Source: Bacillota bacterium (GTDB lineage Bacteria > Bacillota > Limnochordia > DTU087). Taken from it: 44,975 bases of DNA. The stretch lies in assembly GCA_012519025.1 (NCBI GenBank), contig JAAYQZ010000049.1, positions 1 to 44,975 of the forward strand, read 5' to 3'. The notes below the pieces were generated by a model. The model was not told where the DNA came from, searched no databases, and saw only the letters and a program-made list of their open reading frames with translations. Shown here one piece after another: positions 6,071 through 16,944 of the stretch (within the stretch, counting starts at the first letter, position 1; each line of letters begins with the position of its first letter). Both the position numbers and the translations under genes were made by a program.

Positions 6071-7171
6071 TTAGTGGGGTTCGGCACCTGAAGCACCCCG
6101 GCTGCGCATAATCTGAGCCATCCCTTCTGTAACTTCAACAGTGCCATCCTGCAGTACCCAGAGCGCCTCAACCCCCGGCAGGGACTCCACAAGTTTTTTG
6201 CTTTTCTCCAAAGGCAGCAAGAACAGCTCGGTAGATAGGAAATCGGCCACACCGGAATCCTCTGCAACTACCGACACCGCCTGATAATAGTCTCCGGGCA
6301 TTAAAGTCTCGGGATCAATAATGTGGTGCAAAAGCCGGCCGTCCACCACGTAATATCGCTGGTAATCACCACTGGTCACAACAGAGGCATTGTTTATGAA
6401 AACTACATCCAATAAACCATCATCCGCCACGACAGAAGCTCTCGGATCTTGAATCCCAACTCCCCAGCGTTCCCGCAAATCATCTAATGGTTTACCTATA
6501 CCTCGAATATTGCCTCCGGCGCTGATCAAACAGGAATCAAACCCCATCTCCTCGAGCTCCAACGCCACGAGTTCTGTGGCGTAGCCTTTGGCCACAGCGC
6601 CAACGTCCAGGCGCATTCTGCCATCGGGCAGGAAAACAGTTCCTTTTTGTTCATCAACGATGATATCATCTATACTGCTGTACTCTGCAGCTGCTTGTAG
6701 TTCGTGCACAGGAGGCAGTTTCGCCTGTGCGGGGTCAATCCGCCCGACATCCCTGTAGTCATGCCAAATCCCAAGCACCGGGCCCAAAGCAATATTGGTT
6801 TTGCCTTCGGTAAGGGCATACCACTTTTTAGAAAACAAAATCATGTCAACTATTTCTTCGGCAACTTCTACCGGTCTAATGCCGGCATTTTCGTTAATAG
6901 TTTTGACATTATTAACGCCTGAATAGCTTTGGTAAATATCATAATAGCGATGCAGTTCTTGAAAGCGCTTATGGGCATAATTGAAGTATTCTTTAAACTG
7001 TTTTTCATTGCTTGTGTAACCAACGATGATAGTGACTGTGTCAAAGGTATCCATGAAACTATCGGTGTATTTTTCATAGGTGGGATTTTTACCACGTTCA
7101 TAAACAAAAAAAACGCCTGCAATTAAAATCGCCGCCAAAATAAGGATTACCCATCTCCGTCCAAACCACAT
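6071..7171 (-). CDS. apbE: FAD:protein FMN transferase (ApbE)
   Basis: This enzyme transfers FMN from FAD to a Thr or Ser of extracytoplasmic flavoproteins. The family core is clear: DVGAVAKGYATE, the glycine-rich ISAGGNIRGIGKP, then TSGDYQRY, HHIIDPETLMP and the late metal-binding segment ADFLSTELFLLP. The N-terminus (WVILILAAILIAGVFFVY) is a membrane anchor rather than a lipoprotein signal. The start at ATG 7171 follows GGGAGG by 7 nt; a TTG five codons earlier overlaps that site. A TTGTGG-N18-TATAAT promoter lies just upstream. The gene sits downstream of a secreted tandem-repeat protein that may be its substrate. Confidence 0.95.
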   Translation of the reverse strand: MWFGRRWVILILAAILIAGVFFVYERGKNPTYEKYTDSFMDTFDTVTIIVGYTSNEKQFKEYFNYAHKRFQELHRYYDIYQSYSGVNNVKTINENAGIRPVEVAEEIVDMILFSKKWYALTEGKTNIALGPVLGIWHDYRDVGRIDPAQAKLPPVHELQAAAEYSSIDDIIVDEQKGTVFLPDGRMRLDVGAVAKGYATELVALELEEMGFDSCLISAGGNIRGIGKPLDDLRERWGVGIQDPRASVVADDGLLDVVFINNASVVTSGDYQRYYVVDGRLLHHIIDPETLMPGDYYQAVSVVAEDSGVADFLSTELFLLPLEKSKKLVESLPGVEALWVLQDGTVEVTEGMAQIMRSRGASGAEPH

Positions 7172-7200
7172 GCAATTGCCTCCCAAAACACTTTTCCCCT

Positions 7201-7230
7201 ATTATACCCGACAAGAAGCCTCCCCCACAA
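7201..7230 (-). promoter_or_regulatory. Sigma-A-like promoter of apbE
   Basis: The minus strand carries TTGTGG (7230-7225), an 18-nt spacer and a perfect TATAAT (7206-7201), about 30 nt before the apbE ATG. The -35 box lies in the loop of the upstream hairpin at 7218-7241, so read-through from the upstream gene and local initiation may interact. Confidence 0.6.
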
Positions 7231-7241
7231 TGGAGGGAGGC
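7218..7241 (-). terminator. Hairpin after the tandem-repeat protein gene
   Basis: GCCTCCC and GGGAGGC arms (7241-7235 and 7224-7218) enclose a 10-nt loop and are followed on the minus strand by TTCTTGT, a weak U-tract. It is probably an intrinsic or partial terminator between the secreted protein gene and apbE. Confidence 0.55.
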
Positions 7242-7275
7242 CCTATCCACGCATATAGCATCTTAACTGTTTAAA

Positions 7276-8307
7276 CTAGTTTGCGTTCCCGTATGCTTCG
7301 CTGATCGCTGCAAGGTAACTTTCCACTGTCATTGTAACACTGGAAGTCAGCTCAGGCACGTCAGGTACTGCAACGTGGGCATCGTCAATCCGCTTAACCT
7401 TAAGCTCTTGAATCTCTTTAACAGTCTTTCCTACCATCCAACGACCAAGTTCTGCGGCCTGCTCGTACCATTCCTTGCCAATGGAGGAAACTCTGCCCAT
7501 TCCATAATCATCTTTAAGTTCCATTTTGCTCTTGATAGCCGCGCTGCGATCAGCTGTTACTTTAGCTGTGCGCTGATCAAAAGGTACTTTGCTTTGAATG
7601 GTGTCAATGCTGGCACCAACCACTTTGCCATCAGCATCAAACAAAGCGGCAACCATAGTCGTATCAACTTGGGCAGCGGCGGGGCGGGAAGAAGCTATAG
7701 AAACCTCGTGACCAAGACCGAGCTTCACACCGCCAGCGACAACAGACTCAGCATTTTCCCAGGCCTTTTCTACCGCAGCAATATAATCCTGCACAGTCAT
7801 GGTGACCAAAGAAGTAAGCTCGGGGACATCAGGTACTGCCGGATGGGCAGCGTCTCTAGCTTTGACTTTCATGGCCTTAACTTCAGCCACCGTTTTCCCA
7901 ACCATCCAGTTTTCCAATTCAGCAGCCTGTTCAAACCACTCTTTACCAATACCGGAGACCATACCCATACCGTAAGCATCGCCCAGTTCTTTTTTAGTTT
8001 TACCCAGTGCATTTAAGTCACTGGAAACAGTAAAATCTTTGTTGAAATTAACTTTGGTCTGAGCTGCATCTAAAACAACATGCACAATCTTACCATCGCT
8101 GTCAAAAGCTGCGGCAGCAGTTACACTGTCAACCTGTGCCATAGGTGGTACGACATTCCCTCTGGCATCGGTACCAAGATCAGTTGAGCTGGCAATAGAG
8201 GTTACCTGACCAAGGCCCAATTTCACCGGCTCTCCAGCGGCATGGCCCAAAGAAGACAAGGCCATTACAGTAGTAAGTAACACAGTAATTAAAAAGATTT
8301 TTCTCAC
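7276..8307 (-). CDS. Secreted tandem-duplicated protein of unknown function, paired with ApbE
   Basis: This is a 343-residue protein with a Sec signal (residues 1-24, ending GHAA) and two homologous units at about residues 28-187 and 194-342. Both units share VKLGLG, SIASS, AQVD, FDxDGK, DYGMG or AYGMG, SxIGKEW(F/Y)EQAAEL, WMVGKTV, and AVPDVPELTS-VTMTV. I recognise this repeat as typical of uncharacterised Firmicutes proteins but know no proven function. Being next to ApbE suggests a flavin carrier, yet the usual flavinylation motif (S/T-G-A-T/S) is absent from both units. It starts at GTG 8307 after AAAGGGGGAAA, and a good promoter lies 120 nt upstream. It acts outside the membrane. Confidence 0.85.
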   Translation of the reverse strand: MRKIFLITVLLTTVMALSSLGHAAGEPVKLGLGQVTSIASSTDLGTDARGNVVPPMAQVDSVTAAAAFDSDGKIVHVVLDAAQTKVNFNKDFTVSSDLNALGKTKKELGDAYGMGMVSGIGKEWFEQAAELENWMVGKTVAEVKAMKVKARDAAHPAVPDVPELTSLVTMTVQDYIAAVEKAWENAESVVAGGVKLGLGHEVSIASSRPAAAQVDTTMVAALFDADGKVVGASIDTIQSKVPFDQRTAKVTADRSAAIKSKMELKDDYGMGRVSSIGKEWYEQAAELGRWMVGKTVKEIQELKVKRIDDAHVAVPDVPELTSSVTMTVESYLAAISEAYGNAN

Positions 8308-16422: not shown

Positions 16423-16944
16423 TCAATCACTGCTGAGCTCGGCTTCGCCCATTTTATATCCCTGTGCCCAAGTGTACAACCGCTTTGTGTCTTCATCTTC
16501 ATGTTGGTGAGATGCCAACACTTCACCAACAAAGATCACATGGTCACCGGTTTCCAGTTGAGATACCAGTTTGCATTCGAAATTCGCCACGGCATCGCTT
16601 AAAAGCAGTGAGTCTATGGATACAGTAGGTTGGGTGGCCACTGGAAATTCCGCCATTTTGTCAAGTTCGCGGCCGGAGTTGGTCCCATAAAACAAGGCAG
16701 CTTCTGCCATTTCGCCGGATGGAAATGATAATACAAATTCCCCCGCTTTTTCTATTACTTTCCGGGAGTAGCGGGTTAAGCCTACCGAGATGGCAAACAT
16801 TGGCGGCTCATGGGAAGTAATCATAGTCCAACCCAGAGTGATGGGATTGTATCTGCCTTCGGGTGTTTTGGCAACAACAATAACCACGCCCTCAGGGTAT
16901 TTCCCCAAGATCGCTTGTTTGTAATCCCTTTGGATCTGCATCAT
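16423..16944 (-). CDS. Flavin reductase-like FMN-binding protein (split barrel)
   Basis: This 173-residue protein has the split beta-barrel pattern of flavin reductase/HpaC-like proteins: PEGVVIVVAKTPEGRYNPITLGWTMITSHEPPMFAISV read in parts, then RYSRKVIEKAGEFVLSFP and FECKLVSQLETGDHVIFVGEVLA. Such proteins bind FMN and reduce flavin or act as electron carriers in anaerobes. It is cytoplasmic and starts at ATG 16944 after AAGGAGAAG. It is monocistronic, with its own terminator. A divergent peptide-type ABC operon begins 280 bases away. The partner enzyme is unknown. Confidence 0.9.
   Translation of the reverse strand: MMQIQRDYKQAILGKYPEGVVIVVAKTPEGRYNPITLGWTMITSHEPPMFAISVGLTRYSRKVIEKAGEFVLSFPSGEMAEAALFYGTNSGRELDKMAEFPVATQPTVSIDSLLLSDAVANFECKLVSQLETGDHVIFVGEVLASHQHEDEDTKRLYTWAQGYKMGEAELSSD

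Follow-up and report, generated by a model that had tools for sequence, protein, structure and literature searches.

The locus described here raises the question of what an ApbE-type FMN transferase does beside a secreted, internally duplicated protein that lacks the usual flavinylation motif. The window (the whole stretch of DNA analysed, 44,975 nucleotides) encodes on its minus strand a membrane-anchored ApbE (6071-7186; PF02424, E = 3.2e-62) and, about 90 bases upstream of this open reading frame, a protein of 343 amino acids with a GTG start (7276-8307, minus strand), whose N-terminus is a hydrophobic signal-like helix. Its two halves are repeats of about 155 residues, domain 1 (residues 25-188; 7744-8235, minus strand) and domain 2 (residues 191-343; 7279-7737, minus strand), identical at 89 of 160 positions (56%, E = 4e-56). 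This bears out the arrangement reported in the first-pass annotation, whose marker segments, IGKEW, WMVGKTV and VPELTS-VTMTV, were found in each half. Nothing above the cut-off was obtained for the secreted protein in Pfam or NCBIfam; PF04205 (FMN_bind) does not match it even at E ≤ 10 and gave no match at this gene in the search of its own genome, and Pfam likewise returned neither DUF2271 nor DUF3570. The weak Pfam, NCBIfam and single-sequence PDB matches were mutually inconsistent and were discarded. The explanation that we favour, with a probability of about 0.72, is that the protein is a PplA-like extracytosolic flavoprotein that receives its flavins at T169 and T325 from a dedicated ApbE and carries electrons outward. 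This explanation draws on computed results for the gene pairing, the homology to PplA-type proteins, the register of the heptad, the conservation of its acceptor residue, the ApbE clade and the occupation of the PplA slot in other genomes.

A family scan over one genome per species returned 171 relatives, and all those kept belong to Bacillota. The set used here, 79 fetched loci plus the window, comprises 81 proteins with 163 domains, and 79 of the 81 proteins have exactly two domains. A version with four domains occurs in Sedimentibacter hydroxybenzoicus (L027:5560-7920). ApbE adjoins the family gene in 66 of the 80 loci across Bacillota, in 64 of them downstream on the same strand and typically after a gap of about 100 bases. 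Given adjacency at this frequency, the pairing is not attributable to chance, and the link proposed in the first-pass annotation, against which frequent occurrence without ApbE would have spoken, withstands this check. Among the 14 loci without an adjacent ApbE, three stop at a contig edge and 11 do not. Within 101 related genomes, a set that overlaps with the former, 12 have a strong family match, with an ApbE in all 12 and an adjacent one in 11; weak matches to the family profile in several genomes (E of about 1e-4, in the signal-peptide region) were disregarded. Members that lack an adjacent ApbE are those at L013, L035, L037, L043, L046, L051, L058, L062, L063, L066 and L077, some of which are second copies beside an ApbE-linked member in the same genome (for example L046/L024 and L037/L044). 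The idea that the family occurs where FMN_bind is absent was rejected, as 27 of 29 family genomes also carry FMN_bind. In the part of the literature that was searched, no published description of the family was found.

ApbE targets the heptad D-x-x-[ST]-G-A-[ST] and attaches FMN to its last residue; in a model substrate, changing A to V or G to A leaves about 50% flavinylation, while changing T to A abolishes it (PMC12052999). The strict heptad is present in none of the 163 aligned domains, and neither is the G-A pair. The absence of the usual motif, as stated in the first-pass annotation, is therefore correct to the extent that the protein has no [ST]GA[ST], but the VPELTS-VTMTV segment itself contains the variant heptads ELTSLVT in domain 1 (7801-7821, minus strand) and ELTSSVT in domain 2 (7333-7353, minus strand), with predicted acceptors T169 and T325. 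Since in alignments with related proteins these coincide with the canonical heptad, the motif is altered rather than missing. Across the family the heptad usually reads [DE]-L-x-S-[S/L/T]-V-T, at the same place and spacing as the canonical one; all 163 domains begin it with D or E (position 1) and end it with T (157 domains) or S (6 domains) at position 7, whereas a few members are intermediate, with D-L-x-A-G-V-T or D-L-x-A-G-C-T.

RnfD is among the established kinds of ApbE target, and seven genomes of the window's taxonomic family have DG-x-[SA]-T-V-T at its ApbE site, nearly the same letters as those of the secreted family, although RnfD and NqrB are integral membrane proteins of a different family and fold; the textbook G was found in none of the 30 RnfD heptads examined (L218-L247). 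Because PplA-like relatives carry V and these RnfD proteins read as they do, both the G and the A substitution are, to judge from the alignments, found at accepted ApbE sites of putatively flavinylated proteins. In the secreted family both residues are replaced simultaneously, a double change for which the literature covered holds no in vitro test. From the heptads we infer covalent FMN at T169 and T325. Flavinylation at a new motif, one of the options raised by the first-pass annotation, thus gains computational support, with the qualification that the site looks like a diverged form of the known motif at the homologous position and not an unrelated one.

Profile comparisons link the family to PplA-type FMN_bind proteins. 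The family profile matches PDB entry 2kzx, a PplA-type FMN_bind domain with the motif DAISGAT (itself scoring FMN_bind at E = 1.6e-7), with E = 3.8e-4 and the motif in register. Against the domains of PplA/cAD1-like tandem proteins, collected with the 2kzx sequence and cleared of one family member (L176), hhalign gives a probability of 96.7% (E = 3.6e-10), compared with 0.1-0.3% for shuffled or reversed controls; the heptads of these relatives read DAISGVS, DDIAGVS or DAVTGCT. A second connection is provided by bridging proteins in four other genomes (G041, G059, G062, G066; for example L128:718-2496 and L130:1009-2841), which combine one FMN_bind domain, the only domain that Pfam recognises in them, with two larger related repeats carrying DVVTGAT or close variants. 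Their domains align to the family over 156 columns (probability 97.3%, E = 1.7e-11). Direct comparison is weak, with a probability of 5% for ordinary FMN_bind domains and 11% for canonical-motif PplA domains, and the profile link runs via the SGVS subset and the bridging domains. By these profiles the window protein is a distant relative of PplA-type flavoproteins, with a homologous domain and the site in register, and does not stand apart from the known flavoproteins. The homology rests on sequence profiles, given that Foldseek searches of the PDB with the full-length and single-domain models gave no match at E ≤ 1e-3 and no FMN_bind structure among the best 50 matches. The AlphaFold2 models are of high confidence (pLDDT 95.9 for the full length and 95.8 for residues 192-343) and predict a meander of three strands that leads into helices, the last of which directly follows the heptad. 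The top Foldseek matches, MHC-like and IscU-like (the best of them IscU-like, TM 0.3-0.5), were treated as uninformative owing to their low TM scores.

The adjoining ApbE shares with ApbE/FmnB proteins (PF02424) the Pfam match, the catalytic triad (S272-H288-D315), the FmnB-type arginine (R277) and the metal-site threonine (T319). It differs from them in its phylogenetic position. In a tree of 99 ApbE sequences, a very long branch supported at 100/100 separates the 66 that are family-linked, including that of the window, from the ordinary ApbEs of the window's genome and its relatives and from PplA-linked ApbEs. Within the clade the serine is conserved in 66 of 66 sequences, the histidine in 65 of 66, the aspartate in 65 of 65 and the arginine in 66 of 66, and the metal-site threonine is retained too. 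The loop that reads DPxTGYP elsewhere is DPxTLMP (L in 64 of 66 clade members, G in 33 of 33 others), and further changes, M to F, S to N, D to N and T to A, affect positions conserved in ordinary ApbEs. These changes would fit the altered heptad. By computation, the family-linked ApbEs are thus a dedicated clade whose catalytic residues are intact.

The loss of the G-A core from all 163 domains also suits a different reading, akin to the non-covalent binding and the assistance to ApbE that the first-pass annotation had considered as well, namely that a PplA-type descendant now binds flavin non-covalently, either to carry it or, as a chaperone, to pass FAD or FMN on to ApbE. Since the ApbEs of Enterococcus faecalis and Listeria monocytogenes can hydrolyse FAD to FMN (PMC4767422), the adjoining enzyme could supply free FMN. 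The acceptor hydroxyl and the D/E residue are nevertheless kept in 163 of 163 domains, neither being obviously needed for a non-covalent site, and the ApbE retains all its catalytic residues, which makes this reading improbable. It is also rather unlikely, and slightly more so, that the ApbE modifies RnfD, RnfG or NDH2 and that the secreted protein, for instance a cell-surface binding protein, is unrelated to it and simply shares the operon. Other ApbE-type sites do occur in the same genome (RnfG DMITGAT, RnfD DTISMAT, NDH2 DGTSGAT), and in a related genome (G081), with four FMN_bind matches, the sole ApbE is family-linked. However, a second, ordinary ApbE is available in the EET (extracellular electron transfer) locus of the window's own genome, the ApbEs beside family genes group in a single clade tied to the family, and the pairwise divergence of ApbE and partner is correlated across loci (Mantel r = 0.85, 0 of 2000 permutations), a correlation to which shared species history contributes.

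Flavinylation of the secreted protein by its own ApbE is also consistent with the EET context. In Listeria, the EET set includes EetB, which exports flavin, the ApbE FmnB, and PplA, which is labelled at two sites (PMC9973259). In 16 loci the family pair lies inside a Listeria-type EET gene cluster, in the PplA slot, among components confirmed by Pfam: a membrane-anchored NDH2 and a polyprenyl synthase (HepS), a UbiA prenyltransferase (DmkA-type) in most clusters, and NusG_II (EetA-like) and PF07456 (EetB) in many. True PplA-like genes hold the same slot in other genomes, so the role in extracellular electron transfer put forward in the first-pass annotation is supported by this placement. In each of Faecalicatena contorta, Muricomes intestini and Clostridium C105KSO13, FMN_bind matches just one protein, whose size is that of RnfG, and these EET isolates therefore lack a second, Pfam-recognisable PplA. 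The pair in the window is itself not within an EET locus; that of its genome is found on a different contig, where it includes an ordinary ApbE but no PplA, the only FMN_bind protein of the genome being RnfG. That the flavinylated protein serves some purpose other than EET, for instance delivering electrons to a dedicated extracytosolic reductase, is very improbable: for the majority of the window protein's close relatives, the surrounding 6 kb or so is free of EET genes and the contexts vary, but the 16 loci, though those of more distant relatives, are inside EET clusters, and the EET locus of the same genome is without a PplA.

According to the favoured explanation, the secreted protein would belong to the PplA/cAD1 branch of the FMN_bind superfamily and act outside the cytosol. 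The adjoining ApbE would use FAD outside the membrane and, in each domain, link FMN by an ester bond to the threonine that ends [DE]-x-x-S-x-V-T (T169 and T325), producing an electron carrier with two flavins. A membrane pool filled by NDH2 and quinone, and possibly by Rnf, would then be drained by this carrier towards extracellular acceptors, as by PplA in Listeria. With PplA and the cAD1-precursor lipoprotein (2kzx-type, CPE2226/3o6u-type) the family has in common two tandem domains, secretion or a lipid anchor, the adjacent ApbE, the slot among NDH2/DmkA-type genes and ApbE in EET loci, and profile homology with the site in register, including V at position 6 in part of the PplA-like proteins. 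The family is distinguished by the replacement of the position-5 G by S, L, T or K in nearly all members, by longer domains with SxIGKEWxEQ and GKT segments, by escaping PF04205 and by a partner ApbE from a separate clade. Overall its sequence suggests a so far unrecognised relative of PplA, a shuttle that carries flavin, with an altered attachment signal and its own version of ApbE.

A survey published in 2021 left about 4% of apbE-bearing genomes without a recognised substrate and noted that less prevalent substrates are still unidentified (PMC8238504). The same work described DUF2271 and DUF3570 as ApbE substrates outside FMN_bind, which resemble the present family in their discovery from apbE neighbourhoods, their extracytosolic location and their candidate or proven flavinylation, but which carry [ST]GA[ST] and have no sequence match to it. 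Because searches by motif demand [ST]GA[ST], they would overlook this family, which is a candidate substrate. If it is indeed flavinylated, the recognition rule of ApbE would become wider, the extracellular carrier missing from certain clostridial EET loci (among them those of Faecalicatena contorta and Muricomes intestini) would be accounted for, and a second ApbE/tag pair for the flavin labelling of proteins would be at hand. A bolder proposal, which we hold only tentatively and at somewhat less than even odds, is that the pair is orthogonal: this ApbE would recognise [DE]-x-x-S-[STL]-V-T, its substrate would be a poor one for ordinary ApbEs, and the pair would also provide the PplA equivalent of clostridial EET loci that seemingly lack one.

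Some further observations concern other flavin-related proteins. The RnfD of the window's genome (L085:3687-5027) has an (SAAT/AAAT)n insertion of 13 repeats just before DTISMAT. EET-associated NDH2 proteins contain an Ala-rich loop between their C-terminal membrane helices (L086:9006-10925 in the same genome; elsewhere for example L078:1843-3876, L055, L053 and L187) in which D-[AG]-x-[STA]-[SAG]-A-[TS], as DAVSSAT, DAVTAAT or DGTSGAT, occurs one to three times. These heptads, of which the literature covered makes no mention, look like putative ApbE sites within NDH2 itself. Finally, about 8 kb from the pair, the window contains an open reading frame (16423-16944, minus strand) whose translation resembles a flavin reductase-type protein.
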